Source: Ponticaulis sp. | GTDB lineage: Bacteria; Pseudomonadota; Alphaproteobacteria; Caulobacterales; Hyphomonadaceae | Assembly: GCA_002723155.1 (NCBI GenBank) | Contig: PBNO01000014.1 | Span: forward strand, 59,402-123,401 | Length of the DNA: 64,000 nucleotides | Direction: 5' to 3' | In this document: positions 24,446 to 34,628 of the stretch, one piece after another | How positions within the stretch are numbered: position 1 is the first letter of the stretch | How the letters are laid out: the number at the start of each line of letters is the position of its first letter | Program-made: the position numbers and the translations under genes | The notes under the pieces: model-generated | The model's database searches: none | What the model was told of the DNA's origin: nothing | What the model saw: the letters and a program-made list of their open reading frames with translations, nothing else

Positions 24446-26263
24446 TCAAGCGGCGCCTTTGACCTTCGCGTCGGAGCCTTTTGTAGCTTGCTCTGTAAGC
24501 CACTCTCGGAAGTTCTTCATTGCGGGCTTCCAGTTGTTGATCGTGTCAGGCGCAAAGACTTTCGCAGTCGGATACCAGGGCAGTTCACCCGTGCCGAGAT
24601 AAGGCCACGCATTCGGCGCACCGATAATGGCGGTACGCGCACCAGAGCCTGCCGCGATGTTCGTCGTTGCGTTCATTGGGCCGACGACCAGATCAAGCGC
24701 AACGCAAAGTGCAGCCAGATCATCCAGATCGTCTTTCAGATTGATGCCTTCCATCTGGTGGATTTTGACGCCGAACTCTTTCTCAGCGCGTTCAATATCT
24801 TCCGCGCATTCGCCATACTGAAGGTTTACCCAGACAACGCCTTCGGTTTTCAGCGTGTCCTTCCACTGCGTGAACGGAGAATAGTATTTCGAACGCTTCG
24901 CCGTCATCAGCATGGACTTCCAGAGGATGCCGGTTTTGAGGCCCGGGCCGAGCTTGGCCAGTTCGCTTTTCCAGTGTTCGATACGGTCCGGATCAGGTGT
25001 CAGGAAGCCACCTTCTGTCGGGAAGTCTTTGATATCTGTACGCAGAGCACGCAGAACGCTCGCCATTGGTGCCCAGAAATCATAGGTGTCCCAGTCGGTG
25101 ATCAGCGGGCAGCCACGAAGTGGAATGGCGTTAGAGCGAACCGTAGAGTGCTTAGTGACTTTCGCTGTCGGGAAGGAGCGCTGCATTAGCGCTTCCAGAC
25201 GCGGCACCACACCGATGGTCAGCGACCCTTCAGGGCCGAGCCGGTCAATCAGATCATGGCCCATATTCAGGAACATGACTTCGTCACCGAGACCCTGCTC
25301 GCCTACGACGAGGATTTTCTTTCCTTCCAGCGGTTCGCCATCCCATTGCTTCAGCGGAATGGAGTAGGACGTCGCACCGCCATAGCGCGGGTTGTTACGG
25401 CATTCGTATGCGTCCCACGCTTTGTCGAGCTGACCGGAACCAATGAGGGAGATCGCAATCGCGTGCTCGGTTTCCGCGCGCTCATTTGCTGGCATGACGC
25501 CTAGATCGAGCGCTTTTTGAAGATAGTCGAGCGCCACGTCATGGCGGCCCTCTGTCGCGCGGCAATAGCCGATATTGTGATAGGCGCGCGCAAGGTTTGG
25601 CTCCAGCTGAAGCGCTTGTTCATAGAACAGAACCGCATTGTCGAATTCTGTCTGCTCCATCATGACAGTGCCGAGCGAGTTCCACAGAAGCGAGCTTTCC
25701 TGATTCTCGTAAATCGCGGCGCGCAGTACTTCGATAGCGCTCTCAAATTCGCCTTTATCGCGCAGAACGCAAGCGAGGTTGTTCGGGCCTTCTACATGGT
25801 TCGGCATCATGCGGCAGAAAATGCGGAAGAATTTCTCTGCGACGTCATAAAGGTCCATGCGCCAGGCCAGCAGGCCAAGGTTCTGGTAGATCTCCGGCTC
25901 TTCCGGCGAGAGTTGAAGCGCGCGTTCATACATGCCGAGCGCAAGGCTCGCGACGCCGAGCTTATCGAGTGCGATAGCTGTAATATGGCAGGCGAGGGCG
26001 AGGTTCTCGTCAATATTGACGGCTTGCAAGCCAAGCTGCGCTGCCTCGCGGTATTTCTCTTCATTGATAAGCCGTACAGCGCGCTTCATCAGCGGCATAG
26101 CCTTACGCAGCTTATCGTCTGACTTGTTATTCTTATAGCGAAGAACCGTTTTCAGCGCCTGACTCTTGGCTGCATCGCCCAGGGCGTCAGCCGGCATTGG
26201 ATTGGCGAGAGGTGCCGCGTCCAGCGCTTGATCGAGAGTTGTGTTCTGGGTGGCGTCGGTCAT
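24446..26263 (-). CDS. flmG: TPR-domain flagellin glycosyltransferase, FlmG-like
   Basis: 605 aa. Residues about 40-290 are a run of TPR repeats (for example SLALGMYERALQLSPEEPEI and AVLFYEQALQLEPNLARAYH). Residues about 300-590 are a glycosyltransferase-like domain (VVGEQGLGDEVMFLNMGHDL, GPMNATTNIAAGSGARTAII). This modular layout matches Caulobacter FlmG, whose TPR part binds flagellins and whose C-terminal part attaches pseudaminic acid. Context agrees: divergent from flbT-flaF, beside five flagellin genes, with a nonulosonic acid cluster 14 kb away. Acts in the cytoplasm before export. Confidence 0.8.
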   Translation of the reverse strand: MTDATQNTTLDQALDAAPLANPMPADALGDAAKSQALKTVLRYKNNKSDDKLRKAMPLMKRAVRLINEEKYREAAQLGLQAVNIDENLALACHITAIALDKLGVASLALGMYERALQLSPEEPEIYQNLGLLAWRMDLYDVAEKFFRIFCRMMPNHVEGPNNLACVLRDKGEFESAIEVLRAAIYENQESSLLWNSLGTVMMEQTEFDNAVLFYEQALQLEPNLARAYHNIGYCRATEGRHDVALDYLQKALDLGVMPANERAETEHAIAISLIGSGQLDKAWDAYECRNNPRYGGATSYSIPLKQWDGEPLEGKKILVVGEQGLGDEVMFLNMGHDLIDRLGPEGSLTIGVVPRLEALMQRSFPTAKVTKHSTVRSNAIPLRGCPLITDWDTYDFWAPMASVLRALRTDIKDFPTEGGFLTPDPDRIEHWKSELAKLGPGLKTGILWKSMLMTAKRSKYYSPFTQWKDTLKTEGVVWVNLQYGECAEDIERAEKEFGVKIHQMEGINLKDDLDDLAALCVALDLVVGPMNATTNIAAGSGARTAIIGAPNAWPYLGTGELPWYPTAKVFAPDTINNWKPAMKNFREWLTEQATKGSDAKVKGAA

Positions 26264-26403: not shown

Positions 26404-26841
26404 ATGCCGCTTAAATTGTCGCTGAAACCAGGCGAAAAATTCGTTGTAAACGGCGCTGTCATTCAAAATGGCGATCGTCGCGGTGTTCTGCTTCTGCAGA
26501 ACAAAGCGTCTGTTCTGCGTGAGAAAGACATTATGCAGCCGCACGAAGCAGATACGCCTGCGAAGCGCATCTATTTCCCGGTTATGATGATGTATCTCGA
26601 TCCTTCGGACGTATCGAGCCAGTACGAAGAATTTGTGGTGAGAATGACGGAATTCATGTCCGTCATAAAAAATCCTGATATCCTCAAGGAATGCATTTCC
26701 TGTTCCAAGGATGTGATGGCGGGTCAATATTATAAGGCGCTTTCAAGGTGCCGGAACATTATGTCATACGAAGAGGAGCGCTTGGGGCATGTCCATCAAG
26801 GCGTATCAGCAGACAGCACGCCGGACCGAGAATCCGCGTGA
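26404..26841 (+). CDS. flbT: Flagellin synthesis repressor FlbT
   Basis: 145 aa, matching FlbT, which in Caulobacter binds flagellin mRNA and limits translation until the hook is finished. Family pattern visible: MPLKLSLKPGEKFVVNGAVI, then RRGVLLLQNKASVLREKDIM and a central IYFPVMMMYLDP. CTGGAGGACACC precedes the ATG. The gene overlaps flaF by 53 bp and flmG is divergent, an arrangement specific to alphaproteobacterial flagellin loci. Confidence 0.94.
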   Translation: MPLKLSLKPGEKFVVNGAVIQNGDRRGVLLLQNKASVLREKDIMQPHEADTPAKRIYFPVMMMYLDPSDVSSQYEEFVVRMTEFMSVIKNPDILKECISCSKDVMAGQYYKALSRCRNIMSYEEERLGHVHQGVSADSTPDRESA

Positions 26842-27139
26842 AATTGAGTATCGCCTCTTTGCTCAGGTAACCGCCGCGCTCGTCGAGGCACAAAAAACCG
26901 GCAAGAGCGATCTCCATAAGCTCATGGACGCGCTGGACTGGAACCGGCGGGTCTGGTCTGCGCTGTCTCTGGACTGTGCGAATCCGGACAACGGATTGCC
27001 GGCTCAGCTGCGTGCCAGCATTATTTCTCTGTCGATTTTCGTCAGTAAGCATACCTCTGAGATCATGCGCGAAGACGAAGACATTCAGGATCTGATCGAT
27101 ATCAACCGACTGATCATGCAGGGACTGAACGGCGAATAG
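26789..27139 (+). CDS. flaF: Flagellin synthesis/secretion facilitator FlaF
   Basis: 116 aa with family pattern AYQQTARRTENPREIEYRLF and LDWNRRVWSALSLDCA. FlaF is required for flagellin production and secretion and acts opposite to FlbT. It overlaps the end of flbT; GAGGAGCG upstream supports the start at ATG 26789. A terminator hairpin follows 45 bp after the stop and runs into the start of the next gene. Confidence 0.94.
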   Translation: MSIKAYQQTARRTENPREIEYRLFAQVTAALVEAQKTGKSDLHKLMDALDWNRRVWSALSLDCANPDNGLPAQLRASIISLSIFVSKHTSEIMREDEDIQDLIDINRLIMQGLNGE

Positions 27140-28560: not shown

Positions 28561-28577
28561 CCCGGCAAAGACTGCAC
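28561..28577 (+). promoter_or_regulatory. FlbD/ftr-type enhancer of flagellin 1
   Basis: CCCGGCAAAGACTGCAC carries an intact left half (CGGCA) and a weaker right half (TGCAC) with a 5-base spacer. Its centre (28570) lies 123 bp before the sigma-54 GG, the same distance as the better copies upstream of flagellins 2-4. Confidence 0.5.
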
Positions 28578-28691
28578 TACAGGGCTGAACAGGCTCGGAA
28601 ATCCCTGCCTATCCGCGGGCGACTTGTGTGGATATTTATAGAAAATTCAATGAAATAGGGGCTTTCGCAGTTAAGTTTCCATTTACCAAAA

Positions 28692-28708
28692 CGGCACGCC
28701 ATTTGCGC
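28692..28708 (+). promoter_or_regulatory. Sigma-54 promoter of flagellin 1
   Basis: CGGCACGCCATTTGCGC has GG and GC 10 bases apart, matching TGGCAC-N5-TTGCW. It lies 76 bp before the start codon. Confidence 0.75.
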
Positions 28709-28783
28709 ACGCGTATGCAGGACAAAATGTCCAGCTGACTAAAATGGTCAGAACAATACCTGCCAGAATGGAAGGAAACTAAA

Positions 28784-29614
28784 ATGGCTGCCCTTTCTGT
28801 AAATACCAATTATGGGGCGATGGTCGCCCTGCAACAACTGAACAGCACCAACATGGCTCTCAGCGGGACCCAAGAACGTATCAATACCGGGCTAAAGGTT
28901 GCATCGGCTAAGGACAATGGCGCGATTTACGCCATTGCTCAGGGCATGCGTGCAGACCTTTCCGGCTTTGGCGTTGTTCTTGACAGTCTCGACCGCACCG
29001 GGTCGACGGTGGATGTCGCAATCGCGGCCGGAAGTGCAATTTCCGACCTTCTCATCGATATGAAAGAGAAAGCGCTTGCTGCATCTGACGAAACACTGAC
29101 TACGGCGCAACGAGCTGCCTTCAGCGAAGATTTCAAGGCGCTGCGTGATCAGATCGATACCATTGTCAGCAATGCTGAATTCAATGGCGTGAACCTGATC
29201 AACGGATCGACTGCAGAAATCACGGCATTTGCCGATGCTGATGGCAATTCTGTCATCACGGTGCAAGATGAAAACCTTTCTCTGGGTGGTGGCGTAGTGA
29301 CGATCGCTGCGACGGCATCGCTCGACACAGCTACCAATGCTTCAGCTCTGGTCTCTACGATTGAAACATCGCTGACTAACCTGAACCAGGCGCTCGCGCG
29401 TCTGGGCACGTCTTCGAAGGCGCTCACGATTCACTCTGAATTCGTGACAAAGCTGCGTGATTCCCTCGAGAAGGGTGTCGGCCAACTGGTCGATGCGGAC
29501 ATGGCAAAAGAGAGTGCCAAACTTCAGGCTCTGCAAACAAAGCAGCAGCTTGGCGTGCAGGCACTGTCGATCGCGAACCAGGCTCCGCAGATCATCAACA
29601 GTCTGTTCCAGTAA
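28784..29614 (+). CDS. Flagellin 1
   Basis: Filament subunit of 276 aa with the conserved N-terminal D0/D1 helices (VNTNYGAMVALQQLN, RINTGLKVASAKDNGA) and C-terminal helix (SAKLQALQTKQQLGVQALSI). The variable middle domain is short, as usual in Caulobacter-type flagellins. Its end, PQIINSLFQ, differs from flagellins 2-4, which end ALSFFR. GGAAGGAA precedes the ATG. First of five paralogs in tandem; probably a target of the FlmG-like glycosyltransferase. Confidence 0.95.
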   Translation: MAALSVNTNYGAMVALQQLNSTNMALSGTQERINTGLKVASAKDNGAIYAIAQGMRADLSGFGVVLDSLDRTGSTVDVAIAAGSAISDLLIDMKEKALAASDETLTTAQRAAFSEDFKALRDQIDTIVSNAEFNGVNLINGSTAEITAFADADGNSVITVQDENLSLGGGVVTIAATASLDTATNASALVSTIETSLTNLNQALARLGTSSKALTIHSEFVTKLRDSLEKGVGQLVDADMAKESAKLQALQTKQQLGVQALSIANQAPQIINSLFQ

Positions 29615-29717
29615 GACCTTCAGTCGTAAATGGGGGAGGGATGTATTCCTTCCCCCTGCTACGAACACCGTAAGTTGGAAACAATGCGTAAGAACACGCA
29701 CACAGAAGCACAGGCGG

Positions 29718-29749
29718 CCGTCGGCGGAGAGATCCCCGGCGGTTTTTTC
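29718..29749 (+). terminator. Terminator of flagellin 1
   Basis: CCGTCGG (29718-29724) pairs with CCGGCGG (29736-29742) through one G-U pair and is followed by TTTTTT. An earlier GGGGGAGGG / CCTTCCCCC stem at 29632-29656 lacks a T run. Confidence 0.65.
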
Positions 29750-29753
29750 ATGG

Positions 29754-29776
29754 CCCGGCAGGCAGTAATTGCCGGG
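29754..29776 (+). promoter_or_regulatory. FlbD/ftr-type enhancer of flagellin 2
   Basis: The core GGCAGTAATTGCC (29761-29773) lies within a larger CCCGGCA...TGCCGGG inverted repeat. Its centre is 123 bp before the sigma-54 GG of flagellin 2. Confidence 0.65.
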
Positions 29777-29874
29777 GGAGGAAAGTTTTGCCTGGTCGAA
29801 ACTGCCTCGCGGGAAAATTGCATCCTTTTTCGTAACATTTTCATCCGTAATTACGGGGGCTGACGCTTCATCCC

Positions 29875-29905
29875 TTAACCATTCTGTTTGGCATCGCGCT
29901 TGCTT
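29875..29905 (+). promoter_or_regulatory. Sigma-54 promoter of flagellin 2 with adjoining TTAACCAT box
   Basis: TGGCATCGCGCTTGCT (29889-29904) fits TGGCAY-N5-TTGCT. TTAACCAT, a CtrA half-site, sits at 29875-29882, seven bases before the GG. The start codon is 75 bp further on. Confidence 0.78.
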
Positions 29906-29978
29906 TTACTAGTCCGCAGGCAAAACGCCTGAGCGAGCAAAATGCACGCGTTACATAACCAGAATGGAGATCGCTAAA

Positions 29979-30803
29979 ATGGCGAGCGTAAATACGAACT
30001 ATGGCGCTATGGTTGCGCTGCAGCAGCTGAACTCTACAAACTCTCAGCTCGAAATGACTCAGACCCGTATTAATACGGGCATGAAAGTCTCCTCCGCAAA
30101 AGACAATGGTGCTGTTTATGCGATCGCTCAGGGCATGCGCGCTGACGTTGCTGGCTATGGCGTTGTCACAGACTCACTAGATCGTTCAAGCTCTACAGTC
30201 GACGTTGCTATCGCAGCTGGCGAAGCGATCGGTGATCTCCTCATCGATATGAAAGAGAAAGCGCTTGGTGCAGCTGACTCTTCCCTGACTTCAAACCAGC
30301 GTGCTGCCTTCAACGAAGACTTTAAAGCGCTTCGTGACCAGATCGCGACTGTTGTCTCTAACGCTGAATTCAACGGCGTGAACCTGATCAACAACTCTAC
30401 TGCTAACATTGAGGCGTTCGCGTCTGCTGACGGTACATCCGTCATCACAGTTCTCGACGAAAACCTGTCTCTGTCCGGCTCTATCGTGACGCTGACATCT
30501 ACTGCTGTCATCGATACAGTCACGAAAGCGTCTACAGCAGTTTCTACAATCGAGACATCGCTGACAAACCTGAACCAGGCGCTTGCTCGTCTCGGTACAG
30601 CATCTAAAGCGCTCGGCATTCACTCGGACTTCGTTACGAAGCTTTCTGACGTAACCGAGAAAGGTATCGGCAACCTCGTCGATGCGGATCTCGCAAAAGA
30701 ATCTGCGAAACTGCAAGCCCTGCAAACCAAGCAACAGCTCGGCGTTCAGGCGCTCTCTATCGCCAACCAGGCGAGCGGTATCGCTCTGTCCTTCTTCCGT
30801 TAA
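29979..30803 (+). CDS. Flagellin 2
   Basis: 274 aa from ATG 29979. An earlier in-frame ATG at 29964 is rejected because its own GGAG is the ribosome-binding site for the later codon and because the protein then begins MASVNTNYGAMVALQQLN like its paralogs. Standard flagellin N- and C-terminal helices; ends SGIALSFFR. A 43-base stretch spanning the leader and first codons is identical to that of flagellin 3, a sign of recent duplication or gene conversion. Codon use is strongly biased (TCT, ACA), fitting very high expression. Confidence 0.95.
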   Translation: MASVNTNYGAMVALQQLNSTNSQLEMTQTRINTGMKVSSAKDNGAVYAIAQGMRADVAGYGVVTDSLDRSSSTVDVAIAAGEAIGDLLIDMKEKALGAADSSLTSNQRAAFNEDFKALRDQIATVVSNAEFNGVNLINNSTANIEAFASADGTSVITVLDENLSLSGSIVTLTSTAVIDTVTKASTAVSTIETSLTNLNQALARLGTASKALGIHSDFVTKLSDVTEKGIGNLVDADLAKESAKLQALQTKQQLGVQALSIANQASGIALSFFR

Positions 30804-30864
30804 GAAGCGACGGCCTCTCAGAGGCGAAACAGTTAAGATATTGAAGGTGGCAGCCTTCATTCCT

Positions 30865-30898
30865 GCCGGGTCCCTCAGGGGCCCGGCTTTTTCTTTTT
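30865..30898 (+). terminator. Terminator of flagellin 2
   Basis: GCCGGGTCCCTCAGGGGCCC followed by GGC folds into a GC-rich stem (30865-30887) and is followed by TTTTTCTTTTT. Confidence 0.9.
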
Positions 30899-30967
30899 CG
30901 TGATCCGTGCGACCAATTTATAAATTTCTGAATAAAATCAATACTTTGTAAAGGGTGGTAAATTGTG

Positions 30968-30984
30968 CCCGGCAATTATTGCCG
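30968..30984 (+). promoter_or_regulatory. FlbD/ftr-type enhancer of flagellin 3
   Basis: CCCGGCAATTATTGCCG is a near-perfect inverted repeat (CGGCA-N5-TGCCG) centred 119 bp before the sigma-54 GG. It is the best copy in the window and close to the ftr element bound by FlbD in Caulobacter. Confidence 0.72.
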
Positions 30985-31094
30985 ATAGGCAGAAAAAGCG
31001 GGAGGTCGGAGAAAATTTAATAAAGCTTCCGTGCCGCGTTAACATTTTTGCCCCTGAAAACCGGCCAAAACTCTTTTTCTGTTAAGCAGGAAAC

Positions 31095-31110
31095 TGGCCC
31101 GTCATTTGCG
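31095..31110 (+). promoter_or_regulatory. Sigma-54 promoter of flagellin 3
   Basis: TGGCCCGTCATTTGCG has GG-N10-GC at exact spacing; the start codon is 74 bp downstream. Confidence 0.78.
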
Positions 31111-31183
31111 AAGCCATTCTGCGGACAAAAGGTCCGTTCAGGCAAAAGGCCTGAGTTACATAACCAGAATGGAGATCGCTAAA

Positions 31184-32008
31184 ATGGCGAGCGTAAACAC
31201 TAACTATGGCGCAATGGTTGCGCTGCAACAGCTGAACCAAACCAACTCAGCTCTCGAGACAACTCAGACCCGCATCAACACGGGCATGAAAGTCGCTTCC
31301 GCAAAAGACAACGGTGCTATCTATGCGATCGCTCAGGGCATGCGCGCTGACGTTGCTGGCTACGGCGTTGTTAAAGAGTCTATCGACCGCACAAGCTCTA
31401 CAGTTGACGTTGCTATCGCTGCTGGCGAAGCAATCGGTGATCTCCTCATCGACATGAAAGAGAAAGCACTTGGTGCTGCTGACTCTTCTCTGACGTCTTC
31501 CCAGCGCTCTGCGTTCAACGAAGACTTCAAAGCGCTTCGTGACCAGGTTGCGACAGTTATCTCTAACGCTGAATTCAACGGCGTGAACCTGATCAACAAC
31601 ACAACAGCTTCTGTAGAGGCATTCGCATCTGCTGACGGCGGTTCTGTGATCACAGTTCTCGACGAGAACCTGTCTCTGGGCGGTTCAATCGTTACTCTGG
31701 CTGCAACTGCGTCTCTGAACACAGTGACTAACGCTTCCGCAGCTGTTGGCACTATTGAGACATCTCTCACAAACCTCAATCAGGCTCTGGCCCGTCTTGG
31801 CACGGCGTCTAAAGCGCTTGGTATTCACTCTGATTTTGTCACGAAACTTTCTGACGTGACTGAGAAAGGTATCGGCAACCTCGTCGATGCGGATCTCGCA
31901 AAAGAATCTGCAAAACTGCAGGCTCTGCAAACCAAGCAGCAGCTCGGCGTTCAGGCTCTGTCCATTGCCAACCAGGCAAGCGGCATTGCCCTGTCCTTCT
32001 TCCGATAA
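31184..32008 (+). CDS. Flagellin 3
   Basis: 274 aa from ATG 31184 (MASVNTNYGAMVALQQLN); the longer frame from 31106 only adds leader sequence that contains the ribosome-binding site. Very close to flagellin 2 throughout, differing mainly in the central variable part. Ends SGIALSFFR. Same enhancer and sigma-54 promoter architecture, same 5' leader and its own terminator, so each copy is an independent transcription unit. Confidence 0.95.
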   Translation: MASVNTNYGAMVALQQLNQTNSALETTQTRINTGMKVASAKDNGAIYAIAQGMRADVAGYGVVKESIDRTSSTVDVAIAAGEAIGDLLIDMKEKALGAADSSLTSSQRSAFNEDFKALRDQVATVISNAEFNGVNLINNTTASVEAFASADGGSVITVLDENLSLGGSIVTLAATASLNTVTNASAAVGTIETSLTNLNQALARLGTASKALGIHSDFVTKLSDVTEKGIGNLVDADLAKESAKLQALQTKQQLGVQALSIANQASGIALSFFR

Positions 32009-32058
32009 GGGAAGACCAAAAAAACGAAGACATAAAAGGCGTAAGACCTTTCGTGACT

Positions 32059-32084
32059 GCCGGGCCCTTGTGGCCCGGCTTTTT
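32059..32084 (+). terminator. Terminator of flagellin 3
   Basis: GCCGGGCC-CTTGT-GGCCCGGC (32059-32079) followed by TTTTTCG. Confidence 0.9.
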
Positions 32085-32170
32085 CGTTTCTGGCGCACTC
32101 TCGTGATGTGATTGCGCGACCGAAATCTATAAAATTTCAATAAAAACAGTGAAAGGGTAGGCAAATTTAA

Positions 32171-32188
32171 CCCGGCAATTTATGCCGG
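32171..32188 (+). promoter_or_regulatory. FlbD/ftr-type enhancer of flagellin 4
   Basis: CCCGGCAATTTATGCCGG is an inverted repeat (CCGGCA-N5-TGCCGG) centred 122 bp before the sigma-54 GG of flagellin 4. Confidence 0.7.
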
Positions 32189-32287
32189 TGGGCAGGTTTG
32201 GTCACCACCTTCATATTTCGCTAACCATACCGGAAATTTTGTTAACCATAGGCGTGCAGCAGCCGCCGAGAATCCTGAAAATCACGC

Positions 32288-32317
32288 TTAACCATAAGTC
32301 TGGCCCAGCTTTTGCCT
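32288..32317 (+). promoter_or_regulatory. Sigma-54 promoter of flagellin 4 with adjoining TTAACCAT box
   Basis: TGGCCCAGCTTTTGCC (32301-32316) has GG-N10-GC. TTAACCAT (32288-32295) lies just before it, as for flagellin 2, and a second TTAACCAT is at 32242-32249. Confidence 0.78.
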
Positions 32318-32402
32318 AGTCATATGCGGGAAGAATCCCAGTGAGCAAAAAGCTCTGAACATGCCTGCCTGCAGGCATTGAAGACCAGAAAGGACCACCA
32401 AA

Positions 32403-33227
32403 ATGGTGAGCGTGAATACAAACTATGGCGCAATGGTTGCGCTGCAACAGCTGAACAACACAAACTCGGCTCTCGAAACATCTCAGTCCCGCATCAACAC
32501 GGGTATGAAAGTTGCGTCTGCTAAAGACAACGGCGCTATCTTCGCGATTGCTCAAGGCATGCGCGCTGACGTTGCCGGTTTCGGTGTTGTTAAAGAATCC
32601 ATCGACCGCACAAGCTCTACTGTCGACGTTGCTATTGCTGCTGGTGAAGCAGTTGGTGACCTTCTCATCGACATGAAAGAAAAAGCACTTGGTGCTGCTG
32701 ACGGATCTCTCACAACATCTCAGCGTGCAGCATTTAACGAAGACTTCAAAGCGCTTCGTGACCAGATCGGCACAATTGTCAGCAACGCTGAATTCAACGG
32801 CGTGAACCTCATCAACAACTCTACAACCGGCGTGGAAGCGCTGGCTGATGCAGATGGTGGTTCTACTATCACTGTTGTGGACGAAAACCTGTCTCTCGGC
32901 GGCTCAATCGTGACGCTCGCAGCGACAGCATCTCTTGACACTGTGACAAACGCTTCTGCAGCGGTTGGCACAATCGAAACCTCGCTCGACAACCTGAACC
33001 AGGCGCTCGCTCGTCTCGGTACAGCGTCTAAAGCGCTCGGCATCCACGGCGACTTCGTTCAGAAGCTGTCTGACGTGACCGAGAAAGGTATCGGCAACCT
33101 GGTCGATGCGGACCTCGCAAAAGAATCTGCGAAACTTCAGGCTCTGCAAACCAAGCAACAGCTTGGTGTTCAGGCTCTGTCTATCGCGAACTCTTCTGCA
33201 GGTATTGCATTGTCCTTCTTCCGATAG
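32403..33227 (+). CDS. Flagellin 4
   Basis: 274 aa (MVSVNTNYGAMVALQQLN). Same family and length as flagellins 2 and 3 but slightly more diverged in the centre (STTGVEALADADGGSTITVV) and near the end (ANSSAGIALSFFR). AAAGGA precedes the ATG. The flaG gene follows after 72 bp containing a stable hairpin without a T run, so some read-through into flaG is likely. Confidence 0.95.
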   Translation: MVSVNTNYGAMVALQQLNNTNSALETSQSRINTGMKVASAKDNGAIFAIAQGMRADVAGFGVVKESIDRTSSTVDVAIAAGEAVGDLLIDMKEKALGAADGSLTTSQRAAFNEDFKALRDQIGTIVSNAEFNGVNLINNSTTGVEALADADGGSTITVVDENLSLGGSIVTLAATASLDTVTNASAAVGTIETSLDNLNQALARLGTASKALGIHGDFVQKLSDVTEKGIGNLVDADLAKESAKLQALQTKQQLGVQALSIANSSAGIALSFFR

Positions 33228-33299: not shown

Positions 33300-33677
33300 A
33301 TGTCAGGAGATCTCAAACTTACTCCGGTATCTGGTGCACTGGCTTCCGATATCAGACAGGAACGGTTCGCGTTCCGTGAAGCTTCCGGTCAGGAAGAACA
33401 GTCTGCAGTTTCAGACATCTCGAAAAACGAAGATGCCGAAGCGACTGACCCTGCCGAGCAAAGACGCCAGCTTCTGAAAGAGGCGCTGGAAGAAACTCAG
33501 AATGTGCCAAACGGCCGGCTCGTCATCGAGCGGGATGAAGACACGGGCAAATATGTCCAGAAGGTTCTTGATCCGAAGTCCGGCGAGGTTCTTAAACAGT
33601 GGCCAGAAGAGCAGTTTCTCGAGCTCGCCAAGTCTATGGGCGAAGCTTACGGACTGATTGTTGACCGTCAGGTCTGA
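33300..33677 (+). CDS. flaG: FlaG-family flagellar protein
   Basis: 125 aa. The C-terminal half (PNGRLVIERDEDTGKYVQKV then LDPKSGEVLKQWPEEQFLEL) matches the FlaG family pattern of a two-stranded beta unit followed by a helix, whose members affect filament length. The N-terminal half is acidic and probably disordered. AGGAGAC precedes the ATG. It is downstream of flagellin 4 and upstream of the divergent fifth flagellin copy, consistent with co-expression with flagellins. Confidence 0.82.
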   Translation: MSGDLKLTPVSGALASDIRQERFAFREASGQEEQSAVSDISKNEDAEATDPAEQRRQLLKEALEETQNVPNGRLVIERDEDTGKYVQKVLDPKSGEVLKQWPEEQFLELAKSMGEAYGLIVDRQV

Positions 33678-33794: not shown

Positions 33795-34628
33795 ATGGTT
33801 TCTAGTGTACATACAAATTCAGCTGCAATGAGCGCATTGCAGGTTCTGAACAAAACCAATAGTGATCTTGAGCAGACCCAAAACCGGGTCGCGAGCGGGT
33901 ATAAAGTCGGCGGCGCCAGAGACGACTCAGCGGTTTTTGCGGTTGCGCAAGGCATGCGGGGCGACATCGGAGCACTAGCCGCGGTTCGAACCAGTCTGGA
34001 TCGCGCCAACTCGATTGTTGACGTCGCGATTGCCGGTAGTGAATCCATCTCTGACTTGTTGATTGAGCTGCGATCGAAAGCCCTTGCAGCGTCCGATACA
34101 TCGATTAACGGCGCGGCGCGTTCCGCATATGATGAGGATTTCAAATCGCTCATCAGCCAGATCAGCACGATCATCAGCAATTCCGAATTTGACGGTGCGA
34201 ACCTTCTCGATGGCTCGCAGACGAACGGTATCGGCTTCATCGCTGACATCGACTCGACTGATCAGATCACTCTGGATACTGAAAATCTGTCACTTGGCGG
34301 ATCAATTATCACCTTCGCGGCTACGGCGAGCCTCGGCACAGCAACGCTGGCGTCCGGTCTTGTCAGCACGATTGATACAAGCCTGAACAATGTGAACGCA
34401 GCGCTGTCCCGCCTCGGCGCGACGGCCAACCGCGTTGATACGCATGTCAGCTTCGTATCCAAACTTAGTGATAGTCTTGAGCAAGGCGTGGGTAACCTCG
34501 TCGATGCTGACCTCTCCAAAGAGAGTGCGCGACTGCAGGCCTTGCAGGTTAAACAACAGCTCGGCGTTCAGGCGCTGTCTATCGCGAACCAGAATTCTCA
34601 GACGATCCTTTCCCTCTTCCAGGGATAG
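33795..34628 (+). CDS. Flagellin 5 (divergent paralog)
   Basis: 277 aa with flagellin terminal helices (SSVHTNSAAMSALQVLNKTN and SARLQALQVKQQLGVQALSI) but clearly less similar to the other four: the opening is VHTNSAAM instead of VNTNYGAM, and the variable part and end (SQTILSLFQG) differ. Codon use is less biased than in flagellins 2-4. GGGAGAG precedes the ATG. In Caulobacter the more divergent flagellins occupy special positions near the hook; a similar role is possible here but not shown. Confidence 0.93.
   Translation: MVSSVHTNSAAMSALQVLNKTNSDLEQTQNRVASGYKVGGARDDSAVFAVAQGMRGDIGALAAVRTSLDRANSIVDVAIAGSESISDLLIELRSKALAASDTSINGAARSAYDEDFKSLISQISTIISNSEFDGANLLDGSQTNGIGFIADIDSTDQITLDTENLSLGGSIITFAATASLGTATLASGLVSTIDTSLNNVNAALSRLGATANRVDTHVSFVSKLSDSLEQGVGNLVDADLSKESARLQALQVKQQLGVQALSIANQNSQTILSLFQG

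Follow-up and report, generated by a model that had tools for sequence, protein, structure and literature searches.

Predicted FlbD/ftr-type promoters and twin hairpins in the 5' untranslated regions of four tandem flagellin genes of Ponticaulis sp.

In a 64,000-nucleotide stretch of Ponticaulis sp. DNA (GenBank assembly GCA_002723155.1, contig PBNO01000014.1, positions 59,402 to 123,401 of the forward strand; hereafter the window), four tandem flagellin genes (flagellins 1-4) are each preceded by a palindrome of the ftr type and a sigma-54 core, and each of their 5' untranslated regions (UTRs) opens with two short hairpins that have ARAA-type loops and differing stems. These promoters are very probably ordinary FlbD/ftr-RpoN promoters, a prediction we make because FlbD, FliX and RpoN are encoded in the genome, the composite of palindrome and core is rare in the genomic background, and the sites recur in relatives. 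The hairpins are candidate targets of FlbT, a link suggested by their placement. The enhancer is ordinary, of the known FlbD/ftr-sigma-54 kind, and the hairpins are the part worth following. The features are listed in Table 1.

Promoters of flagellins 1-4

The palindromes, of the CGGCA-N5-TGCCG type, are centred at 28570, 29767, 30977 and 32180, and the GG of the -24/-12 core (GG-N10-GC), present in all four promoters, stands at 28693, 29890, 31096 and 32302 for flagellins 1-4, respectively. A first-pass annotation of this DNA had placed the repeats 123, 123, 119 and 122 bp before the cores, and these coordinates are confirmed exactly. Every palindrome has at most two mismatches (two for flagellin 1, where the site is weak, one for flagellin 2 and none for flagellins 3 and 4). 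They were typed by an ftr consensus and a distance of about 100 bp from the start that we take to be characteristic. To that annotation our analysis adds the UTR hairpins and, for flagellin 1, a second site at 28596-28610. The weak flagellin-1 site 1a is supported by conservation, since each of the six members of its group (the window and five congeneric genomes) has two sites, one near 123 bp and the other near 90 bp. An alignment of six genomes of the genus also reveals 16 invariant bases in the flagellin-1 spacer, AAAATTCAATGAAATA (28642-28657).

TTAA or TTAACC elements lie at 28671, 29875, 31082 and 32288, i.e. 14-22 bp before the GG of flagellins 1-4 (14-15 bp in three of the four, 22 bp in the fourth). 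Among 269 promoters of relatives, 49 have TTAAC 8-24 bp upstream of the GG and 27 have it 52-68 bp upstream, and four other intervals of equal width hold it in 4 to 12. CtrA half-sites are one possibility for the elements near the cores; a full CtrA site (TTAA-N7-TTAA) was found in the spacers of 1/269 promoters.

A quite different reading takes the palindromes for terminators of the preceding flagellin gene and not for protein sites. They are indeed GC-rich intergenic inverted repeats; palindrome 4 is terminator-like on the minus strand in a mechanical scan, and a similar repeat lies between convergent genes at C4:204.96 kb. However, the same scan reports none of the four on the coding strand, and separate terminator-like hairpins precede sites 3 and 4 (30865-30887 and 32059-32079); another precedes site 2, seen by eye and absent from the mechanical scan. 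The gene preceding flagellin 1 is divergent, and congeners conserve the positions of the sites with respect to the core. On the unreported coding strand, the separate terminators, the divergent upstream gene and the conserved positions, we reject the terminator reading, which seems far-fetched.

Genomic background

The combination of palindrome and sigma-54 core is beyond chance. The four flagellin sites served to build an ftr matrix, and 400 kb sampled from the same genome served as background. Pairs of an ftr score of at least 12 and a sigma-54 score of at least 18, 40-200 bp apart, number five in the window and zero in the background; the scores of the four flagellin pairs are favoured by the construction of the matrix, which leaves the background count unaffected. 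The fifth pair joins the flagellin-1 site (28570) to a minus-strand sigma-54-like sequence (28421) 149 bp away. This sequence lies inside a rhodanese-domain gene, and its pairing with the flagellin-1 site is probably due to chance. At looser thresholds (at least 10 and at least 16, 115-127 bp), the background holds 3 pairs per 400 kb and the window 4. Genome-wide, the composite pattern (gap 100-130) has eight matches, the four flagellins and four others, and its control three.

The first-pass annotation had proposed a genome scan with a four-site matrix and a comparison with motif frequency at random positions. With leave-one-out matrices, sites 2, 3 and 4 outscore every position of the 400 kb background, but the flagellin-1 site does not. 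The strict composite is missing from that background, but across the genome the exact palindrome by itself shows no enrichment. The figures on the unfavourable side are given below, where the promoter reading is weighed.

Enhancer distance across relatives

Two sets of flagellin promoters were compared. Set 1 comprised 75 loci of relatives, from the best 80 of 167 matches, and set 2 comprised 120 regions from genomes of the order. In set 1, 26/211 promoters were dropped for a sigma-54 score below 16 and 41/185 for redundancy, leaving 144; in set 2, 102/313 and then 86/211 were dropped, leaving 125. A palindrome matching at 8/10 positions or more, 30-200 bp upstream, accompanies 130/144 and 101/125 of these non-redundant sigma-54 promoters, respectively. 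The two sets together hold 440 sites in 269 promoters, compared with 44 in mononucleotide shuffles. At least two sites occur in 139/269 promoters, and 87/159 homologous groups contain such a promoter. IHF-like sites, scored against the IHF consensus, are enriched in the spacers of relatives (77/230 at 8/9 or better, versus 19.3 in shuffles).

The distance from the best site to the core ranges from 58 to 146 bp in set 1, from 72 to 198 bp in set 2 and from 102 to 136 bp within the genus, and an offset profile scan did not single out any distance (best z 2.5). Fixed spacing is not a family rule, and as a general rule it has to be given up. What persists is the pairing of enhancer and core; how far away the ftr sites lie and how many there are differs widely. 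The argument of the first-pass annotation, that a constant distance over otherwise diverged sequence points to functional enhancers, is thus weaker than stated, although its conclusion gains from the regulator genes, the rare composite and the recurrence of the sites. Its premise of divergence holds for the most part but not entirely: the DNA between site and core is 51-59% identical among the four promoters (z 0.3 to 3.2), but three of the six spacer pairs align above most shuffles (P 0.01-0.023). Homology is plain in the four UTRs, with z values from 3.4 to 11.3.

Because flagellins 1-4 are tandem paralogs, the spacing may be inherited, and inheritance through tandem duplication within a tolerated window fits it best. 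That the equal spacing is a mere relic of recent duplication, silent on function, we regard as an even call. The genes are adjacent, with protein identities of 78-91% among the pairs listed, their UTRs are homologous, half of the spacer pairs align as noted, and the best-site distance varies even within the genus. Against this, the enhancer-core DNA aligns only weakly among the four while both its ends are preserved, and the sites recur in diverged genera.

The distance might instead be variable but keep to one side of the DNA helix, in steps of about 10.5 bp, which we consider unlikely. In an exploratory analysis, the best period in set 1 was 10.4 bp (jitter-null P 0.0025), and set 2 alone was also periodic, at about 10.7 (the Rayleigh test at 10.4 gives P 0.0013). 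Homologous promoters tend to differ in distance by about 0, 10, 20 or 30, and single-site and farthest-site subsets look periodic, post hoc. However, set 2 did not pass the V-test specified beforehand (P 0.67), its phase being different from that of set 1, and one promoter per homologous group gave R 0.12 (P 0.13); the small P values are untrustworthy since the rows are related. Helical enhancer-promoter phasing was dropped on the V-test and the non-significant result per homologous group. The spacings between tandem sites have no peak at 10.5 bp (R 0.248; null 95% 0.230, 99% 0.262), and helical spacing of tandem sites was dropped as well.

Regulators and other flagellar loci

The genome encodes FliX (PF10768, E 8.3e-36), two copies of RpoN, on contigs C4 and C17, and FlbD (NF050807 equivalog, 788 bits against a cut-off of 750), whose gene shares a 20-kb stretch with fliF, fliG and flhA. 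The second RpoN gene shares contig C17 with an NtrC-like activator (L026:10209-11882 and L026:61-1494).

Eight strong AAA+ activator matches, FlbD included, and the two RpoN genes, one of them accompanied by an activator, leave room for another NtrC-type activator at these promoters, perhaps acting with the second RpoN. We think this quite improbable: one of the three activators scanned reaches the FlbD cut-off (five further strong ones lie outside the scan), it adjoins flagellar genes, and FliX is present.

Outside the window, the best ftr-matrix score among the DNA scanned (25.3) belongs to an exact palindrome at C14:26693-26707 (L046:1501-1515), 86 bp before fliQ-fliR, with FliQ and FliR both over their cut-offs. 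The matrix scan found no composite with a proper sigma-54 core there, and TTAA boxes adjoin the palindrome (by eye), so that it is a candidate repressor site as at fliF; this role is the likely reading. In the region between flgK and a divergent flgD/flgE-like operon (L024:4881-5220), the genes of which have family matches mostly below equivalog cut-offs, a minus-strand sigma-54 core has ftr-like sites at 125 and 103 bp with modest scores (11.2 and 9.8). The next site after fliQ in flagellar loci (18.3, at C4:204.99 kb) falls within a terminator-like repeat between convergent genes and was not counted as an enhancer.

Several observations weigh against an FlbD/ftr-RpoN assignment. The flagellin-1 site is at chance level, equalled or beaten 243 times in 400 kb under its leave-one-out matrix, and since the window holds 79 palindromes with up to two mismatches, this site is uninformative alone. 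Exact palindromes number 9 genome-wide and 12 in the reversed control. No palindrome of the quality set above was found in 14/144 promoters of set 1 and 24/125 of set 2, and none of the four spacers of the window has an evident IHF-like site (best 6-7 of 9). Because two RpoN and seven other activators are encoded, the pairing of FlbD with RpoN is inferred rather than proven.

For the FlbD/ftr-RpoN reading, we take the mechanism from two sources (PMC3930126; PMC3096577). FlbD would bind the palindromic ftr enhancers about 90-123 bp upstream of flagellins 1-4, as late flagellar genes, and would loop to RpoN polymerase at the -24/-12 core, which would be opened by ATP hydrolysis. FliX would permit activation upon completion of the early flagellar structure. 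The similar spacing of the four sites would reflect tandem duplication within a tolerated window and not a family-wide fixed distance. The anatomy of the sites, their conservation and the presence of the genes are direct observations; binding, looping and transcription starts are predicted.

Hairpins in the 5' untranslated regions

Folding yields both hairpins in all four UTRs, with z values of -3.8, -1.2, -3.0 and -1.6 for flagellins 1-4, and the 5' UTR of flagellin 1 is strongly conserved in the six-genome alignment. A search of both strands of about 0.73 Mb of DNA from the same genome gave four twin arrangements, of which three belong to flagellins 1, 3 and 4; flagellin 2 fails the stem rule owing to its mismatch. 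The flagellin 5 UTR has no hairpins and a folding z of 0.0.

The loop recurs across the order. Among 257 non-redundant UTRs (12/269 were dropped for a length outside 40-150 nt), at least one AAAA-loop hairpin is found in 162, versus 21.9 in dinucleotide shuffles, and two in 40, versus 0.6; none is found in 95. The AAAA loops sit on 122 different stems, in a search that itself required AAAA. Covariation was examined with every AAAA taken irrespective of pairing. Bases pair in 79% of cases at -2/+2 and 78% at -3/+3 (287 cases, 184/257 UTRs), compared with 44% and 49% when the 3' arms were shuffled. Among loop lengths of 3 to 7, the pairing signal appears at the five-base loop only, and when each homologous group contributes a single case (n=63), pairing is 68% and 66% versus 42% and 40%.

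The hairpins are distributed unevenly over the flagellin tree, which was built from 452 rows (45 dropped by length, 222 after clustering, 120 used, i.e. 5 from the window and 115 random). The group that contains flagellins 1-4 (support 91, not starred) has them in 67/83 rows, and the remaining rows, flagellin 5 included, in 7/37 (Fisher P 3e-10, for a split chosen after the tree and with rows that are not independent).

No Rfam family matches the hairpins, and 10 loci of relatives gave only two tRNAs at gathering level. A SorX match in the window stretch (18.4 bits, gathering 46.6) was taken as chance. Among the best literature matches listed, which did not cover the text of Anderson and Gober 2000 or Ardissone et al. 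2020, no title or abstract opening describes such hairpins. Shortly before the start codon, CCAGAATGG or CCAGAAAGG is seen at 28763-28771, 29959-29967, 31164-31172 and 32385-32393, possibly a third mini-hairpin, again with this loop type, beside the ribosome-binding site.

Possible role of FlbT

In a 2015 review, FlbT is reported to act on the 5' UTR of flagellin mRNA, its sequence selectivity is left blank and the mechanism is described as unresolved (PMC4347634), which is why the hairpins matter more than the enhancers. In Caulobacter, FlbT works together with FljJ, a regulatory flagellin under CtrA control that shares 49% identity with the other flagellins (PMC7591256). The hairpins are placed as FlbT targets would be, and few members of the group of flagellin 5 have them. 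The mRNAs starting with twin ARAA-type hairpins could carry the site of a second, translational checkpoint exerted by FlbT.

We tentatively propose, at somewhat less than an even chance, that the twin hairpins are an RNA operator for FlbT, with a flagellin as co-repressor, across Caulobacterales. The FlbD enhancers and the hairpins would then form two checkpoints, and FljJ-type flagellins would escape the second. Flagellin 5 is more divergent (60% identical to flagellin 1), and the matrix scan places no sigma-54/ftr pair for it among the composites of the window; it is apparently exempt from both controls and may be an FljJ-like co-repressor. Its group may be of the FljJ type.

Two observations count against the hairpins as a regulator target. 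Two of the four UTR folds (flagellins 2 and 4) are not unusual relative to shuffles, and 16/83 flagellins of the group with flagellins 1-4 have no hairpins. The main rival is that the hairpins are generic stabilisers of the 5' end against RNase decay, which we consider possible but doubtful. Consistent with it, the first hairpin begins a few nucleotides from the start predicted from the core. However, a stabiliser would need no particular loop, yet AAAA recurs over the many stems found with it; stem covariation emerged with loops taken irrespective of pairing, the second hairpin is internal, and the other flagellin group mostly goes without. If the FlbT reading is true, the recognition site of FlbT would be defined and directly testable, and the compact, covarying motif can be taken straight into binding and reporter tests.

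Gene content of the window

FlbT and FlaF were not found in the other loci scanned; both genes are located in the window, just upstream of the flagellin cluster. The closest named record among the matches listed, Ponticaulis koreensis, has a flagellin 1 homolog that is 100% identical. A 605-aa TPR protein (24449-26263) adjoins flbT and is FlmG-like in its size and in the TPR repeats at its N terminus, and a Pfam search of it gave no glycosyltransferase domain.

Table 1. Features of the flagellin cluster, in window positions
Feature	Position	Strand	Remark
FlbT gene (post-transcriptional flagellin regulator)	26404..26841	+	Pfam PF07378, E 2.2e-46
FlaF gene (flagellin secretion chaperone/regulator)	26789..27139	+	Pfam PF07309, E 1.7e-38
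ftr-like palindrome 1a	28563..28577		123 bp before flagellin-1 GG; 2 mismatches
ftr-like palindrome 1b	28596..28610		90 bp before flagellin-1 GG; 2 mismatches
Sigma-54 core, flagellin 1	28692..28706	+	
UTR hairpin 1, flagellin 1	28720..28732	+	GGAC-AAAAT-GTCC
UTR hairpin 2, flagellin 1	28735..28751	+	CTGACT-AAAAT-GGTCAG
Flagellin 1 gene	28784..29614	+	
ftr-like palindrome 2	29760..29774		123 bp before GG; 1 mismatch
Sigma-54 core, flagellin 2	29889..29903	+	
UTR hairpin 1, flagellin 2	29917..29931	+	CAGGC-AAAAC-GCCTG
UTR hairpin 2, flagellin 2	29933..29949	+	imperfect, A.A mismatch
Flagellin 2 gene	29979..30803	+	start set by homology; longest open reading frame from 29964
ftr-like palindrome 3	30970..30984		119 bp before GG; exact
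Sigma-54 core, flagellin 3	31095..31109	+	
UTR hairpin 1, flagellin 3	31121..31137	+	
UTR hairpin 2, flagellin 3	31139..31153	+	
Flagellin 3 gene	31184..32008	+	start set by homology; longest open reading frame from 31106
ftr-like palindrome 4	32173..32187		122 bp before GG; exact
Sigma-54 core, flagellin 4	32301..32315	+	
UTR hairpin 1, flagellin 4	32328..32339	+	GGGA-AGAA-TCCC
UTR hairpin 2, flagellin 4	32343..32355	+	GAGC-AAAAA-GCTC
Flagellin 4 gene	32403..33227	+	
FlaG gene	33300..33677	+	Pfam PF03646
Flagellin 5 gene	33795..34628	+	candidate FljJ-like regulatory flagellin

Comparison with known systems

By the enhancer result, the FlbD/FliX regulon would include a genus other than Caulobacter. 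Like the class III/IV promoters of Caulobacter crescentus, those described here combine a sigma-54 core with palindromic upstream sites, have flagellin genes as targets and occur in a genome that encodes FlbD, FliX and RpoN. They differ in distance from the Caulobacter promoters, with sites at 119-123 bp plus a second site at 90, and, unlike IHF-aided promoters of that species, have no clear IHF site in their four spacers. The likeness extends to FlbT control, since FlbT and FlaF are encoded near flagellins with structured 5' UTRs, and may extend to FlbT/FljJ control, with flagellin 5 as a divergent flagellin without the late promoter unit. In contrast to the blank selectivity of FlbT in PMC4347634, a specific tandem ARAA-loop hairpin is present here. 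The CsrA-FliW system is alike in that flagellin translation is controlled by a protein via the 5' UTR (PMC4894983). It differs in its target, since CsrA takes GGA in hairpin loops (PMC4347634), whereas the loops here are of the ARAA type.

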